A stretch of DNA of 64,000 nt, taken from positions 62,001-126,000 of the forward strand of contig JACRMN010000017.1 in the NCBI GenBank assembly GCA_016214955.1. Reading direction: 5' to 3'. The notes under the pieces were generated by a model. The model was not told the origin of the DNA and did not search any database. It worked only from the letters and a program-made list of their open reading frames with translations. A program made the position numbers and the translations under genes. Source of the stretch: Deltaproteobacteria bacterium (GTDB lineage Bacteria > Myxococcota > Myxococcia > Myxococcales > Anaeromyxobacteraceae). Below are positions 1,342 to 48,430 of the stretch, piece after piece (the stretch's first letter is position 1; each line of letters opens with the position of its first letter).

Positions 1342-2847
1342 ATGCCCCACGGCCCCTCCGAAGACCTGGCCGCCGAGGCCCGGAAGCTCCCCCGGGCCGA
1401 CAGGCTCCTCCAGACGGCCGAGGCGGCGGGGCTCGTCGCCCGCCTGGGGCACGGCCCGGTCATGGATCGGGTGAGGGCGCTCCTCGAGGCGGAGCGGGAG
1501 CGGATCCTGGGCGGCGGTGCCTGCCCGCCGCCGGCTGAGATCGAGGCCAAGCTGCTGGAAATCCTCGCGGAAGATTCCCGGGGCGGGCTGCGGAGGGTCA
1601 TCAACGCCACCGGCGTCGTCATCCACACGAATCTCGGGCGGGCACCCCTCTCCGAGGCGGCGGTGGAGGCGATGCGGGCCGCCGCCGGCTACGTGAACCT
1701 GGAGTACGACCTCCGGGCCGGCGAGCGGGGCGACAGGTACGATCACGCCGCCGCCGCCCTGTGCCGCCTGACGGGTGCGGAAGCGGCACTGGTGGTGAAC
1801 AACAACGCCGCGGCCGTCATGCTGGCCCTGGCCAGCCTCTCGGGCGGCCGTCCGGGGGCCGCCGGGGCCACCCCGGTGGCGGGAGGGGCGCCGGACGCCG
1901 GCACGCACGCGCCCGAGGTCCCAGGCACGGGCCCCCGGCCCGAGGTCCCAGGTACGGGCTCCCGGCCCGAGGTGATCGTCTCGCGGGGGCAGCTCGTCGA
2001 GATCGGCGGCGGCTTCCGGGTGCCCGACGTGCTGCGCCGCTCCGGCTGTGCCCTCACCGAGGTGGGCACCACCAACCGAACCTACGCCCGCGACTACGAG
2101 GCGGCGGTGAACGAGCGGACCCGGATCCTGCTCTCGGTGCACCGCTCCAACTTCAAGCTCTCCGGCTTCGTCGCCGACCCCACGCTGGCCGAGCTGGTCG
2201 AGCTGGGCAGGCGCCACGCGCTCTGGACCGTGGACGACCTCGGCTCGGGCACGCTGCTCGAGACCCAGCCCTTCGGCCTCGGCGTCGAGCCCACGGTGCA
2301 GGAGCGGGTCGAGGCCGGGGCGGATCTGGTCTGCTTCTCGGGCGACAAGCTGCTGGGCGGGCCGCAGGCCGGCATCCTGGTGGGCCGGCGCGAGGCGGTC
2401 GATCGCGCCCGGCGCCATCCGCTGCTGCGGGCGCTGCGGGTGGACAAGATCGCGCTCGCCGGCCTCTCGGCCACGCTGGCCCACTACGAGCGCGGCGAGG
2501 CGCTCGGCCGGATCCCGGTGTGGCGCGCCATCTCCGTGGGCCAGGAGGCGCTCCAGGCCCGAGCCGAGCGCTGGCGCGCGGCGCTCATCGACGTGGCGCC
2601 CGGCGCCTCGGTGCGCGAGGGGCGCTCGGCGGTGGGCGGGGGCTCGCTCCCCGAGGTGACGCTGCCCACGCGGCTCCTGGCGCTGCCGGGGCCGGAGCGC
2701 GAGAAGCTCGCCGAGCGCCTGCGCCGGGGCGACCCGGCGGTGGTGGCCCGCATCGAGGAGGGGCTGCTGGTGCTGGACCCGCGCACCGTGCTGCCGGGCG
2801 AGGACGAGCCGCTCCTGGGCGCGCTGCGGAAGGCGCTGACGGGGTAG
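1342..2847 (+). CDS. selA: L-seryl-tRNA(Sec) selenium transferase
   Basis: SelA is a PLP enzyme that converts seryl-tRNA(Sec) to selenocysteinyl-tRNA(Sec) using selenophosphate. The 501-residue product has the typical N-terminal INATGVVIHTNLGRAPL segment. The cofactor-binding core is also there, with VDDLGSG and the Schiff-base lysine K336 in FSGDKLLGGPQAG. It is about 35-40 residues longer than usual because of a Gly/Pro/Ala-rich insert at about residues 170-209, which contains a tandem repeat. It is alone here: neither selB nor a tRNA-Sec gene is visible beside it. A TATCT -10-like motif lies 11 bases before the ATG, so the transcript may be nearly leaderless. That last point is inference. 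Confidence 0.95.
   Translation: MPHGPSEDLAAEARKLPRADRLLQTAEAAGLVARLGHGPVMDRVRALLEAERERILGGGACPPPAEIEAKLLEILAEDSRGGLRRVINATGVVIHTNLGRAPLSEAAVEAMRAAAGYVNLEYDLRAGERGDRYDHAAAALCRLTGAEAALVVNNNAAAVMLALASLSGGRPGAAGATPVAGGAPDAGTHAPEVPGTGPRPEVPGTGSRPEVIVSRGQLVEIGGGFRVPDVLRRSGCALTEVGTTNRTYARDYEAAVNERTRILLSVHRSNFKLSGFVADPTLAELVELGRRHALWTVDDLGSGTLLETQPFGLGVEPTVQERVEAGADLVCFSGDKLLGGPQAGILVGRREAVDRARRHPLLRALRVDKIALAGLSATLAHYERGEALGRIPVWRAISVGQEALQARAERWRAALIDVAPGASVREGRSAVGGGSLPEVTLPTRLLALPGPEREKLAERLRRGDPAVVARIEEGLLVLDPRTVLPGEDEPLLGALRKALTG
1912..1973 (+). repeat. 27-bp in-frame tandem repeat inside selA
   Basis: Two 27-bp units differing at two positions, plus the first 8 bases of a third, encode the nonapeptide PEVPGTGxR twice. 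They sit in the SelA insert and keep the reading frame. Copy number could vary between strains without breaking the gene. Confidence 0.85.
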
Positions 2848-2914
2848 AGGCGGGCGCGGCCACCCGCCCGGTGCGGGGATGCGGCGAGCGCGCCGGGGCG
2901 TGTACGATTCGCCC

Positions 2915-3478
2915 ATGGTGGAGGAGCGAGTCACCCGCGCGCTGCGGCGCGGCGACAGCGCGACAGCGGCGACCGAGGTCATCCGCGGGTACGGGCCGCA
3001 GGTGCTCGCCTATCTCGCCCGCGTCCTGCGCTCCGCGGAGGACGCGCACGACGCCTTCTCCTTCTTCGCCGAGTGGGTCTGGAAGGGGCTCGCGAGGTTC
3101 GAGGGCCGGAGCTCGGTGCGCGTGTGGGCCTACCGCGTCGCCTGGACCGCGGCGCTGCGCGTCCAGGAGGACGGCTGGCGCCGGCGGCGCGAAAGGTTCC
3201 CCAGCTCGATGGCCTCGCGCGTCGCCGCCGAGGTGCTCTCCCACGGTGCGCAGGCCGCGGAGCGGGAGGCGGAGGCGCTGGAGCGGCTCCGCTCCGCGCT
3301 CGAACCGGAGGAGCGCAGCCTGCTGGTCCTTCGGCTCGACCGCCGCCTCTCCTGGAAGGAGATTGCCCAGGTGATGGAGGCCGAGGGCCGAGCGCTCGAC
3401 GAGGCGGCCCTGCGCAAGCGGTTCGAGCGGCTGAAGGAGAAGCTCACCCGCCTGGCGCGGGGGGCGCGGACCGGCTAG
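2915..3478 (+). CDS. Small RNA polymerase sigma-70-like (ECF-type) factor
   Basis: This looks like an extracytoplasmic-function sigma factor. Region 2 covers about residues 20-75 (VLAYLARVLRSAEDAHDAF, then the aromatic helix FFAEWVWKGL). Region 4 covers about residues 125-180, with LEPEERSLLVLRLDRRLSW followed by a helix-turn-helix (KEIAQVMEAEG and LRKRFERLKEKL). Region 3 is absent, as expected for ECF factors. I chose the ATG that gives MVEERV because it lies just after a TACGAT -10-like hexamer. An in-frame ATG 36 bases upstream would add 12 residues that look unconserved. No anti-sigma gene is next to it, so its regulator and target genes cannot be read from this window. Confidence 0.8.
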   Translation: MVEERVTRALRRGDSATAATEVIRGYGPQVLAYLARVLRSAEDAHDAFSFFAEWVWKGLARFEGRSSVRVWAYRVAWTAALRVQEDGWRRRRERFPSSMASRVAAEVLSHGAQAAEREAEALERLRSALEPEERSLLVLRLDRRLSWKEIAQVMEAEGRALDEAALRKRFERLKEKLTRLARGARTG

Positions 3479-3629
3479 CCCGGCGCGCCGGGGCCGCGGG
3501 CCCGGGGAGCGCTCCGTCCGCCGTCGCGGTCTCGAGCCCGCGCGCCGAGCCCGGTCGCGCGTCACGTATTCCGGCCGCTGCGATCTCCAACTCGTTCGCG
3601 CCGCCCACTCGACTTCCCGGAGGTCCGCC

Positions 3630-39976: not shown

Positions 39977-42733
39977 GTGGCGCGCCCGGACTACTACGAT
40001 CCCGGGGAGTGCCAGACCCACGAGGCGGGGGCGCCCAAGTTCTGCAAGAAGTCGGAGCCGGGCGAGGGCGCGGAGCGCAGCTGCGCCTTCGACGGCGCCC
40101 GGGTGGTGCTGATGCCGGTGACCGACGCCATCCACCTGGTGCACGGGCCCATCGCCTGCGCGGGCAACAGCTGGGACAACCGCGGGGCCCGCTCCTCCGG
40201 CTCCCAGCTCTACCGGCGCGGCTTCACCACCGAGCTGCTGCACAACGACGTGGTCTTCGGCGGCGAGGAGAAGCTGCACCGGGCCATCGTGGACCTGGCC
40301 GGCCGCTACGCCGGCGAGGCCCGGGCGGTGTTCGTCTACGCCACCTGCGTCTCGGCCATGACCGGCGACGACGTGGCAGCGGTCTGCCGGCGGGCCGGGG
40401 CCGAGGTGGCCATCCCCGTCATCCCGGTAAACACCCCGGGCTTCATCGGCGACAAGAACATCGGCAACCGGCTGGCGGGCGAGGTGCTGCTGGACCACGT
40501 CATCGGCACCGCCGAGCCGGAGCGCACCACCCCCTACGACGTCAACCTCATCGGCGAGTACAACATCGCCGGCGACCTCTGGGGCATGCAGCCGCTCTTC
40601 GAGCGGCTCGGCATCCGCATCCTCTCCTGCATCAGCGGCGACGCGCGCTTCGAGGAGCTGCGCCAGGCCCACCGCGCCCGGCTCAACGTCATCATCTGCT
40701 CCAAGAGCCTCACCAACCTGGCGCGCAAGATGAAGAAGCGCTTCGGGATCCCGTACCTGGAGGAGTCGTTCTACGGGATGACCGACACCGCCCGGGCCCT
40801 GCGCGACATGGCCCGCGAGCTGGACCTGGCGAACGGCGGCCCCACCGACACCACCATGCGCGACAGGGTGGAGGCGCTGGTGGCCGAGGAGGAGGCGCGC
40901 TGCCGGGCGGCCATCGCCCCGCACCGGGCCCGGCTCGAGGGCAAGCGGGCGGTGCTCTTCACCGGCGGGGTGAAGACCTGGTCGATGGTCCACGCCCTGC
41001 GGGAGCTGGGGGTGGAGGTGTTGGCGGCCGGCACCCAGAACTCCACCCTCGAGGACTTCCACCGGATGAAGGCGCTCCTCCACAGGGACGCGCGCATCAT
41101 CGACGACACCTCCACCGCCGGCCTGCTCCGGGTGATGAAGGACAAGCTGCCCGACCTCATCGTCGCCGGCGGCAAGACCAAGTTCCTGGCGCTCAAGACC
41201 CGCACCCCGTTCCTCGACATCAACCACGGCCGCAGCCACCCCTACGCCGGCTACGCGGGCATGGTCACCTTCGCCCGGCAGCTCGACCTCACCGTCAACA
41301 GCCCCATCTGGCCGGCGCTGCACCGCCCCGCGCCCTGGGACCTCGACGAGGCCGGGCGGGAGGAGGCGCGGGCCGCCGCCGCCGGCCACGGCGCCCGGGT
41401 GCAGGAGGAGGACCTGACCGCCTCGCGGGTCAGGCCGCCGGCCAAGGCGGCCACCGTCAACCCGCAGAAGAACTCGCCGGCGCTCGGCGCCACCCTCGCC
41501 TACCTGGGCGTGGACCGGATGCTGGGGCTGCTGCACGGCTCGCAGGGCTGCTCGACCTTCATCCGGCTGCAGCTCTCCCGCCACTTCAAGGAGTCCATCG
41601 CCCTCAACTCCACCGCCATGAGCGAGGACGCCGCCATCTTCGGCGGCTGGGACAACCTGGTGGCCGGCCTCCACAGGGTGGCGGAGAAGTTCCGGCCCGG
41701 CGTCATCGGCGTCATGACCTCGGGCCTCACCGAGACCATGGGCGACGACGTCCGCAGCGCCATCGTCCGGTTCCGGGAGAGGCACCCCGAGCACGCCGGC
41801 ACCGCGGTGGCCTGGGCCTCGACACCCGACTACTGCGGCTCGCTGGAGGAGGGGTACGCGGCGGCGGTGGACGGCCTGCTGGCGCTGGCCGAGCCCGGGG
41901 AGCGCATCCCCGGCCAGGTGAACCTGCTCCCGGGCGCCCACCTCACCCCCGCCGACGTGGAGGAGCTGAAGCTGCTGGTCGAGTCCTTCGGCCTCTCCTG
42001 CATCGCCGTCCCCGACGTCTCCTGCGCCCTCGACGGCCACATCGACGGCGAGGTCTCGCCGCTCTCCACCGGCGGCGTCGACCTCGAGGCCCTCCGGCGC
42101 GCCGGCCGCAGCGTCGCCACCCTCTACGTGGGCGACTCGCTGGCGCGGGCCGCCGGCCGGCTGGCCGAGCGCTGCGGGGTGCCGGCCCTGGGGTTCACCT
42201 CGGCCACCGGCCTCGGCGAGGTGGACGCGCTGGTGGCGGCGCTCTCGGCCCTCTCCGGCCGCCCCGTGCCCGAGGCCCAGCGCCGCTGGCGCAGCCGGCT
42301 CACCGACGCCATGGTCGACAGCCACTACCAGTTCAGCGGCAAGAAGGTGGCGGTGGCGCTCGAGGCCGACGGCCTGAAGGGCATGACCCGGTTCCTGGCC
42401 GGCATGGGCTGCGAGATCCCGCTGGCCCTCTCGGCCACGCGCACCCGCGGGCTCGACGGCCTGCCGGCCGCGCGGGTGGCGGTCGGCGACCTCGAGGACC
42501 TGGAGCGCGAGGCCCGGGGCGTGGACCTGCTGGTGGCCAGCTCCAACGGGCGCCAGGCCGCGGCCCGGCTGGGCGTGAAGGCCCACCTGCGCGCCGGGCT
42601 GCCGGTGTTCGACAGGCTCGGCGCCCACCAGGTCCTGCGGGTCGGCTACCGCGGGACCATGAACCTGGTCTTCGAGGCCGCCAACCTGTTCCAGGCCCAC
42701 GCCGGCGAGGCCCAGAAGCTGGCGCACAACTAG
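39977..42733 (+). CDS. nifEN: Fused NifE-NifN FeMo-cofactor scaffold
   Basis: A single 918-residue chain holding both halves of the scaffold on which NifB-co matures to FeMo-co before transfer to NifDK. The NifE part (about 1-460) has LVHGPIACAGNSWDNRG and ATCVSAMTGDDVAAVC. A charged, Ala-rich linker (about 450-490) is followed by the NifN part, with TVNPQKNSPALGATLAYLGV, LLHGSQGCSTFIR and TSGLTETMGDDV. Elsewhere these are usually two genes; fused forms are known in some other diazotrophs, for example Geobacter. GTG start 6 bases after nifK; no strong ribosome site, so coupling to nifK is likely. Confidence 0.95.
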   Translation: MARPDYYDPGECQTHEAGAPKFCKKSEPGEGAERSCAFDGARVVLMPVTDAIHLVHGPIACAGNSWDNRGARSSGSQLYRRGFTTELLHNDVVFGGEEKLHRAIVDLAGRYAGEARAVFVYATCVSAMTGDDVAAVCRRAGAEVAIPVIPVNTPGFIGDKNIGNRLAGEVLLDHVIGTAEPERTTPYDVNLIGEYNIAGDLWGMQPLFERLGIRILSCISGDARFEELRQAHRARLNVIICSKSLTNLARKMKKRFGIPYLEESFYGMTDTARALRDMARELDLANGGPTDTTMRDRVEALVAEEEARCRAAIAPHRARLEGKRAVLFTGGVKTWSMVHALRELGVEVLAAGTQNSTLEDFHRMKALLHRDARIIDDTSTAGLLRVMKDKLPDLIVAGGKTKFLALKTRTPFLDINHGRSHPYAGYAGMVTFARQLDLTVNSPIWPALHRPAPWDLDEAGREEARAAAAGHGARVQEEDLTASRVRPPAKAATVNPQKNSPALGATLAYLGVDRMLGLLHGSQGCSTFIRLQLSRHFKESIALNSTAMSEDAAIFGGWDNLVAGLHRVAEKFRPGVIGVMTSGLTETMGDDVRSAIVRFRERHPEHAGTAVAWASTPDYCGSLEEGYAAAVDGLLALAEPGERIPGQVNLLPGAHLTPADVEELKLLVESFGLSCIAVPDVSCALDGHIDGEVSPLSTGGVDLEALRRAGRSVATLYVGDSLARAAGRLAERCGVPALGFTSATGLGEVDALVAALSALSGRPVPEAQRRWRSRLTDAMVDSHYQFSGKKVAVALEADGLKGMTRFLAGMGCEIPLALSATRTRGLDGLPAARVAVGDLEDLEREARGVDLLVASSNGRQAAARLGVKAHLRAGLPVFDRLGAHQVLRVGYRGTMNLVFEAANLFQAHAGEAQKLAHN

Positions 42734-47039: not shown

Positions 47040-47068
47040 TTGCGCGCCGTGGCCGCGGCCGCTACATT
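47040..47068 (+). promoter_or_regulatory. Sigma-70-type promoter of the PheRS-like gene
   Basis: TTGCGC and TACATT are separated by exactly 17 bases, the ideal spacing. Predicted start is near 47075. This leaves about 195 bases of leader before the GTG. Confidence 0.6.
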
Positions 47069-47074
47069 GTCCTC

Positions 47075-47269
47075 GTGAGCTACGGCTGCGCCGCGCGTCG
47101 ATTTACGAGCCCCCGGGCCCTGCATGGGTGCCGGGAGGCCGCGCGCAGCTAGCTCGCGATTCCTCTCGAGGCTGCCGGTCGGCGGCGCACCCAGCGGGCA
47201 CCGGGGGTCGCGCGTTCCCTGCTGCGCCCTCCGCGCGGGGCGCACCCACCCGCAGCCTCCGAGGTTCCC
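47075..47269 (+). promoter_or_regulatory. Long structured 5' leader, candidate cis-regulatory RNA
   Basis: Two domains can be folded by eye. Domain 1 pairs GAGCT and GCTGCGC (47077-47091) with GCGCAGC and AGCTC (47143-47155), 12 pairs in two helices. Inside it, CCCGGGCCC-TGCAT-GGGTGCCGGG forms a second hairpin. Domain 2 is closed by GAGGCTGC with GCAGCCTC just before the ribosome site. GGCGCACCC occurs twice within domain 2. Near its middle, GGGCACCGGGGGTCGCGCG resembles a T-box core but lacks the TGG that pairs with tRNA ends. A regulatory role is inference. Confidence 0.4.
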
Positions 47270-48430
47270 GTGTCCCGCTCTCCCGACTCGCAGAAGACCG
47301 CCCCCCGTACCCTCTCGGCCGAGGAGCTGCGCCGCGCCCGCGCCCTCCGCGACCTCACCGACCCGGCGCAGGGCCCGCATGCCATGCAGCAGCTCCTCGC
47401 CGACGCCCTGGCCGCGCTCCAGGGCGCCTGGGCCTGCGAGGTCATCCTGCGCCGCGCCGACCCGGTGGTGCCGGTAGCCGACAACTACGACAGGCTCGGC
47501 TACCCGGCCGACGGCGCCGCCCGCGCCGCCCGCTACACCCGCTACGTCTCGCCGACCACGCTGCTCCGCACCCAGACCTCGGCCATGATCCCGCCGCTCC
47601 TCCACGAGCTGGCCGAGGACCCGCCGGCCGACGCCGTGCTCGCCTGCCCGGGCCTGGTGTGGCGGCGCGACCGCATCGACAGGCTCCACACCGGCGAGCC
47701 GCACCAGGTGGACCTGTGGCGCATCCGCCGCGGTCCGCCGCTCGGCGACGCCGACCTGCGGGAGATGATCGGGCTGGTGGTGGAGGCCCTGCTGCCGGGC
47801 CGCACCTGGCGCGCCACGCCGGCGGTCCACCCGTACACCCGCCGCGGCCTGCAGATCGACGTGCGCGACGGAGGCGCCTGGGTGGAGATCGGCGAGTGCG
47901 GCATGGCGAGCGAGGCCCTGCTCGCCGCCGAGGGCATGCCCTGGGAGGTCACGGGCCTGGCCCTGGGGCTGGGGCTCGACCGGGTCCTCATGCTCCGCAA
48001 GGAGATCCCCGACATCCGGCTGCTGCGCTCGGCCGACCCGCGCGCCGCCGGACAGCTCCTCGACCTCGGCCCCTGGCGGCCGCTCAGCGACCAGCCGGAG
48101 ATCCGGCGGGATCTCTCGGTGGCGGTGGAGGCCGATGCCTCGCTGGAGGAGCTGGGCGACCGGGTGCGGCAGGTGCTGGGGTCGCGGGCCGACGCGGTGG
48201 AGTGCGTCGAGGTGCTCTCGGTCGCCTACCCGGCGGAGCTGCCGGAGGTGGCGCGGAAGCGGCTCGGCATGACGGCGGGCCAGAAGAACGTGCTCCTCCG
48301 CGTGGTGCTGCGCGACCTGCACCGCACCCTGACCGCCGACGAGGCCAATGAGCTGCGCGACGAGGTGTACGCCGCGCTCCACCGCGGCGCGCGCCACCAG
48401 TGGGCGGGCCAGCGCGGGCGGGCGGCGTAG
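47270..48430 (+). CDS. Single-chain PheRS-like protein with FDX-ACB domain, function unknown
   Basis: A 386-residue class II synthetase-like core related to PheS, fused to the ferredoxin-fold anticodon-binding (FDX-ACB) domain normally found at the end of PheT. This is the layout of mitochondrial, monomeric PheRS. Core motifs: VSPTTLLRTQTSAMIPPLL (about residue 98), DRIDRLHTGEPHQVDLWRI (about 135), WVEIGECGMASEALL and motif 3 LALGLGLDRVLML (about 230). FDX-ACB: RRDLSVAVEADASLEELGDRV (about 283 on). Unusual: HQVD replaces the HQLE of motif 2. Cells normally also have PheS/PheT, so this may charge or modify another substrate. GAGG precedes the GTG. Confidence 0.75.
   Translation: MSRSPDSQKTAPRTLSAEELRRARALRDLTDPAQGPHAMQQLLADALAALQGAWACEVILRRADPVVPVADNYDRLGYPADGAARAARYTRYVSPTTLLRTQTSAMIPPLLHELAEDPPADAVLACPGLVWRRDRIDRLHTGEPHQVDLWRIRRGPPLGDADLREMIGLVVEALLPGRTWRATPAVHPYTRRGLQIDVRDGGAWVEIGECGMASEALLAAEGMPWEVTGLALGLGLDRVLMLRKEIPDIRLLRSADPRAAGQLLDLGPWRPLSDQPEIRRDLSVAVEADASLEELGDRVRQVLGSRADAVECVEVLSVAYPAELPEVARKRLGMTAGQKNVLLRVVLRDLHRTLTADEANELRDEVYAALHRGARHQWAGQRGRAA

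Follow-up and report, generated by a model that had tools for sequence, protein, structure and literature searches.

A phenylalanine-free PheS-related ligase, SrmL, encoded behind a Phe-codon leader, is probably an auxiliary phenylalanyl-tRNA synthetase

Introduction

Why does a myxobacterial genome that already encodes canonical PheS and PheT carry a further, separate PheRS-like chain, and what does this chain do? We addressed this question for srmL, a gene in a stretch of 64,000 nucleotides from an Anaeromyxobacteraceae contig (JACRMN010000017.1, positions 62,001 to 126,000), referred to here as the window. The family record to which its product belongs, NCBIfam NF051887, assigns no function. 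A literature search found no paper on SrmL, nor an account of the Phe-codon leader, Phe avoidance or tRNA-Phe context described below.

SrmL is a stand-alone PheS-related ligase additional to pheST

The srmL ORF has coding-type GC periodicity and is preceded by a Shine-Dalgarno sequence, GAGG, at 47261-47264 (Table 1). A preliminary description of the window had read the product as a PheS-like core joined to an FDX-ACB domain in a single 386-residue chain of mitochondrial layout. The ORF is present as described, both Pfam domains were matched, and the AlphaFold model (pLDDT 93.7) fits human mitochondrial PheRS along its whole length, the best full-length matches among solved structures being those of this enzyme (TM 0.70-0.74). 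The unusual motif 2, HQVD, that it had pointed out lies at H145-D148, with D148 found in 104 of 105 relatives. A named family of PheS-related ligases, which it had suggested, does exist: the NF051887 model, 'PheS-related mystery ligase SrmL', scores 512.3 bits with the window protein against a cut-off of 300, over model positions 1-349 of 349. Scores with the PheRS equivalog models fall below their cut-offs (TIGR00468, 95.9 versus 237.45; TIGR00469, 113.4 versus 258.35), and the window protein is, by sequence, not filed as a standard PheRS. Its placement relative to FARS2 and PheS is based here on these profile scores and on the fold. SrmL relatives are approximately 50-65% identical to the window copy, and nearly all members retain the FDX-ACB domain.

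The suspicion that this is an extra copy was confirmed by the same genome, which carries canonical pheS-pheT in an infC-rplT-pheS-pheT context. Canonical PheS was also found in ten further SrmL-bearing genomes, that is, in all SrmL-bearing genomes tested.

Table 1. Positions of the features discussed; window coordinates unless a record is named
Feature	Position	Strand	Remark
Promoter-like hexamers TTGCGC (47040-47045) and TACATT (47063-47068), 17-nt spacer	47040..47068	+	-10 hexamer 6 nt before leader start
Leader ORF, GTG to TAG (47150-47152), VSYGCAARRFTSPRALHGCREAARS	47075..47152	+	R-F-x-x-P motif conserved among relatives
Invariant Arg-Phe codon pair CGA-TTT, presumed stall site	47099..47104	+	Leader conservation
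RNA strand 1 (CCCCCGGGCCC), C-rich, begins 5 nt past Phe codon	47110..47120	+	Pairs with strand 2 or D
RNA strand 2 (GGGTGCCGGGAGG), partner of strand 1	47126..47138	+	Cognate pairing, p = 5e-5
RNA strand 3, anti-Shine-Dalgarno (CCTCTCGAGGCTGC)	47162..47175	+	Pairs with strand 4, p = 2e-7
RNA strand D (GGGCACCGGGGG), G-rich, alternative partner of strand 1	47196..47207	+	p = 3e-6
RNA strand 4 (GCAGCCTCCGAGG), contains srmL Shine-Dalgarno	47252..47264	+	Pairs with strand 3
srmL, PheS-related ligase, 386 aa, zero Phe	47270..48430	+	GTG start
Class II core (tRNA-synt_2d), residues 70-261	47477..48052	+	Pfam, 105.7 bits
FDX-ACB anticodon-binding domain, residues 273-372	48086..48385	+	Pfam, 33.7 bits
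Fusion genes with srmL-type leader	L123:1667-3043; L120:1680-3041; G039 copy (L164)
Jumbo-phage srmL	L192:3866-4945; L193:2459-3589; L194:2495-3649; L195: core 2501-3595		Four records, 415-635 kb

srmL is patchily distributed and has no constant gene neighbour

The gene was present in 43 of 195 Myxococcota genomes. Even samples of approximately 300 actinobacterial and approximately 200 cyanobacterial genomes contained it once each, in both cases in the centre genome itself. A collection scan yielded approximately 80 srmL loci, mostly from Actinobacteria and Myxococcota, together with a cyanobacterium and a Melainabacterium. Clustering of the genes around 107 srmL loci revealed no neighbour or operon partner that recurs across taxa, no recurrent tRNA near bacterial srmL, and no selenium gene that recurs near the loci. 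The last result bears on a link with selA, cited at 1.3 kb, that had been considered possible. In the window, selA lies at approximately 1381-2829 (G000:C12:63381-64829; 513.7 bits over two pieces), some 44 kb from srmL; it is not a neighbour, and the selenium link was dropped.

SrmL proteins avoid phenylalanine

SrmL proteins are set apart by composition: they avoid PHENYLALANINE (Phe). Among 105 aligned SrmL cores, Phe accounts for 14 of 36,574 residues (0.04%), versus 2.98% of 303,849 residues in neighbouring genes, a depletion of approximately 75-fold; the runner-up, Lys, is depleted 2.6-fold. The full proteins, counted from start codon to stop, contain 15 Phe in 38,628 residues, and 93 of the 105 cores contain none. 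No protein in a comparison set of 221 others of 300-450 aa had fewer than two. The window protein has zero where approximately 11.5 would be expected, and PheS of the same genome has 17 in 359 residues. The avoidance extends to a homologue in a jumbo phage of 30% GC, which has zero Phe, its neighbours having 4.3%. Wherever host PheS has Phe at a well-conserved SrmL position, SrmL carries another residue. We claim no formal p-value for this depletion because the SrmL sequences are related and not independent.

Avoidance of this kind has a precedent in cognate bias, whereby enzymes needed in starvation, those of amino acid biosynthesis, avoid the missing amino acid (PMC4209129). SrmL resembles them in avoiding an amino acid presumed to be scarce; it differs in being tRNA synthetase-like and in the extent of the depletion, sustained over some 350 residues.

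A short leader ORF with an Arg-Phe codon pair precedes srmL

When the region upstream of srmL was scanned for Arg-Phe codons of any kind, 90 of 95 matches were CGATTT. In a second pass the motif was located at 104 of 105 srmL loci; at the remaining one, the contig does not reach far enough upstream. This pass required the motif before the C-run, and its counts are therefore partly conditioned on the pattern. The 104 leaders have CGATTT (97), CGCTTT (3), CTGTTT (2) or CGATTC (2), and in 101 of them exactly 5 nt separate the Phe codon from the C-run of strand 1. The Phe codon is TTT in 102 leaders, a codon that nearby genes use for 8.6% of their Phe codons; CGA likewise makes up 9.1% of its codon set in genes near srmL. 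An in-frame start and stop are present in 103 leaders, all of which encode the Phe and 101 the preceding Arg. Leaders from Anaeromyxobacter show a duplication within the ORF and a deletion of 3 nt, neither of which shifts the frame. This conservation of start, stop and frame suggests that the leader ORF is translated. Since each leader has one Phe codon and the CGA before it is conserved to almost the same degree, stalling may instead depend on an Arg-Phe peptide or on the codon pair.

At 70 of 103 leaders, a TANNNT hexamer lies 3-10 nt before the in-frame start (background approximately 1%), and in 62 of these 70 the distance is 6-7 nt, which points to a probably leaderless mRNA as the template for translation of the leader ORF. 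A generic sigma-70 scan gave no match at the leader, and searches of Rfam, NCBIfam and Pfam with the leader RNA or peptide gave none either.

The leader RNA may bury the srmL Shine-Dalgarno sequence

Helices in the leader were assessed by comparing the pairing of a strand with its own partner and its pairing with partners from other species. Own-partner pairing exceeded non-cognate pairing for helices 3:4, 1:2 and 1:D (p-values in Table 1). In 34 actinobacterial leaders, helix 3:4 has compensatory changes at 7 of 8 pairs, and 94% of the cells of helix 1:D are paired; for the whole structure in the actinobacterial alignment, none of 500 shuffles reached the observed number of compensatory changes. 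Helices 1:D and 3:4 cross each other, and probably only one of them forms at a time. RNAalifold, applied to the 53-nt core across phyla, returned zero pairs because the alignment is gappy. The cyanobacterial leader has a T-run after strand D, so transcription termination may matter there.

Two candidates for the switch itself gave less clear results. Helix 2:3, considered as the ON structure, gave weak cognate pairing (p = 0.06). A clear release of the Shine-Dalgarno sequence at equilibrium upon stalling at the Phe codon was not convincing either: the mean release was +0.02 (p = 0.056), with the window itself going from 0.11 to 0.49.

The same leader precedes an aromatic-biosynthesis gene

A model of the leader had the srmL leader as its strongest match in most SrmL-bearing genomes tested, and was also run over 189 Myxococcota genomes. 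In three SrmL-less relatives, belonging to a genus of the same family, an srmL-type leader with CGA-TTT was found upstream of a chorismate mutase-DAHP synthase fusion (Table 1), which encodes the enzyme at the entry to aromatic amino acid synthesis. Related fusions in two further genomes (G040 and G042) are without such a leader. The fusion was absent from 6 of 6 SrmL-positive relatives and present in 5 of 6 SrmL-negative ones (Fisher p = 0.015). Replacement of srmL by the fusion at the same locus was ruled out, there being no synteny between the sites; the leader thus moved to another gene, having been recruited twice by Phe-related genes. These observations suggest that the leader is a mark of PHENYLALANINE supply.

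Among 250 genomes from one actinobacterial family, a search that started from the leader gave four new matches, namely three srmL genes with leader and one noise match. Leader matches inside a coding sequence (L187) and out of pattern (G103) were discarded. In a myxobacterial genome, an orphan leader of the srmL type is not followed by srmL (L160; G124:C200:28560-28606) and is probably a relic of gene loss.

Plasmids and jumbo phages carry srmL

Three plasmid copies were recovered. An Azotobacter plasmid has srmL with its leader. On a Glutamicibacter plasmid, srmL (L190:5842-6960) has a leader and zero Phe and adjoins the chloramphenicol exporter gene cmx. On a Corynebacterium diphtheriae plasmid, a shortened piece of srmL (L191:4746-5651) lies by a transposase, with erm(X) on one side and tet(65) on the other; intact copies exist outside this fragment. 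The Glutamicibacter leader peptide is identical to that of Brevibacterium mcbrellneri (L077). On both the Glutamicibacter and C. diphtheriae plasmids, DUF1772 and NmrA-family genes then follow srmL, a segment that is a recent mobile block.

These neighbours bring up the reading that ribosomes stall in the leader, on an arrest peptide or at a rare codon, in response to a general translation inhibitor and not to a lack of Phe-tRNA, with SrmL acting in an antibiotic response. The nearby cmx, erm(X) and tet(65) genes would fit it, as would the nearly invariant Arg codon CGA and the failure of equilibrium folding to single out the Phe stall; it leaves unexplained, however, both the absence of Phe from SrmL and the leader at the aromatic-biosynthesis gene, and we regard it as quite improbable. 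Resistance to a PheRS inhibitor, which plasmid copies beside resistance genes fit loosely, would be the most economical reason for srmL and its plausible trigger. Such an inhibitor fits best because additional PheRS would gain the cell little once Phe itself has run out.

Among the four jumbo-phage records, two have srmL in a large tRNA array. In one of these phages the tRNA genes that flank srmL on both sides are the sole two tRNA-Phe genes among 25; in the other array, the second tRNA gene upstream of srmL encodes tRNA-Phe. Phe is absent from three of the four phage cores, and the L194 copy contains six. Phage srmL is possibly an answer to the loss of charged tRNA-Phe in infected cells.

A ligase with a non-tRNA acceptor, comparable to EpmA or the amino acid:carrier-protein ligases and controlled by Phe supply incidentally, receives very little credence from us. 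Class II synthetase paralogues of this kind exist and the amino acid pocket of SrmL is altered, as described below, but FDX-ACB is kept in nearly all members, phage srmL adjoins tRNA-Phe, and no partner or acceptor gene recurs around srmL.

The catalytic residues are kept and the amino acid pocket is altered

Among the 105 SrmL sequences, R238 of motif 3 is invariant, Q146 is found in 104, and R132 and H145 of motif 2 are kept except in one shortened row of the alignment. Phe positions of PheS are replaced at H187, Y189, L230 and L232: the FPF of the Phe pocket has become HPYT, and GFAFG has become GLALG. Nearly all 105 sequences have HPYT and HQxD, so that FPF and the E of HQxE of PheRS are not retained. 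H187, Y189 and T190 are invariant, an acidic E209 takes the place of a Gly of PheS, and residue 148 is D instead of E. Because this pocket, with H187, Y189 and E209 invariant, is unlike that of PheRS, the amino acid used by SrmL could differ from Phe.

SrmL might then charge tRNA-Phe with Tyr, His, Leu or a non-protein amino acid and keep ribosomes moving in Phe starvation. The invariant H187, Y189 and T190 in place of pocket Phe residues, E209 in place of Gly and the E-to-D change at 148 would agree with this, and SrmL is without an editing domain; more PheRS would also help little without Phe. Nevertheless, the pocket changes need not imply another substrate because the whole protein avoids Phe, and this avoidance suffices to explain the lost pocket Phe. 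PheT edits mischarged Tyr-tRNA-Phe, and the host enzyme would be expected to do so here. On balance, we consider charging with a non-Phe amino acid rather unlikely. An emergency recoding, in which SrmL would place another amino acid on tRNA-Phe when Phe is missing and Phe codons would be temporarily reread, is in our judgement unlikely; jumbo phages carry SrmL together with their own tRNA-Phe.

The amino acid charged by SrmL is most likely Phe. The preliminary description had held that SrmL probably has another substrate; protein-wide Phe avoidance explains the altered pocket, and the leader and phage neighbours indicate tRNA-Phe. What endures of that account is a stand-alone, extra PheRS-like chain from a named family of unknown role, and what finds no support is the probable other substrate and the selA link.

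Proposed function of SrmL

The Phe codon of the leader, the avoidance of Phe, the leader at an aromatic-biosynthesis gene and the tRNA-Phe neighbours in phages together lead us to propose, with a probability of about 0.8, that SrmL is an auxiliary phenylalanyl-tRNA synthetase that is switched on when Phe-tRNA is short and can be made without Phe. The srmL mRNA would open with the short leader ORF. If Phe-tRNA runs low, or if PheRS is inhibited, a ribosome would stall at the lone Phe codon of CGA-TTT and, as known ribosome footprints suggest, cover about the five C of strand 1. Covering strand 1 would disturb the 1:2 and 1:D hairpins, which would accompany burial of the Shine-Dalgarno sequence in 3:4, and this disturbance would allow srmL to be expressed. 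Being nearly free of Phe, SrmL could be produced during the shortage and would then charge tRNA-Phe.

Comparison with known systems

The arrangement resembles several known ones in part. Mitochondrial PheRS (FARS2, TIGR00469) likewise has a class II core and FDX-ACB in one chain; SrmL, in contrast, has, in the window, no Phe residues, is additional to pheST and has an inducible-looking leader. The enterobacterial pheST and pheA attenuators also combine a leader peptide containing Phe codons with alternative RNA helices. They have several Phe codons, whereas the srmL leader has one, would bury the Shine-Dalgarno sequence and has no obvious terminator. Leaderless single-codon attenuators have been described upstream of tRNA synthetase genes in Streptomyces (PMC8079986). 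Streptomyces has an auxiliary TrpRS1 that resists indolmycin and is controlled by ribosome-mediated attenuation (Vecchione and Sello 2010, as cited in PMC4787780). Like SrmL as proposed here, TrpRS1 is an extra synthetase behind an attenuator leader with the cognate codon; it concerns Trp and a class I enzyme, whereas SrmL would concern Phe, is of class II, is purged of its own residue and is shared among several phyla as well as plasmids and phages.

In a published survey of Actinobacteria, Phe genes were reported to have no RNA element (PMC1262725); a candidate Phe-responsive attenuator is now available in groups that include this one. The proposal offers a concrete job for a family that its curators named a 'mystery', and SrmL would be an extreme example of an enzyme from which the cognate residue has been purged. 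Copies on plasmids with resistance genes and in jumbo phages with tRNA-Phe suggest that cells and phages repeatedly face loss of charged tRNA-Phe, for which PheRS inhibitors, starvation and tRNA-targeting defences may be suggested as causes. Avoidance of the own residue combined with a cognate-codon leader could serve as a usable signature for other emergency synthetases.

Elsewhere in the window, positions 39977-42733 encode a fusion of NifE and NifN (NifEN, 918 aa), which lies inside a nif cluster that also contains nifX and nifB.
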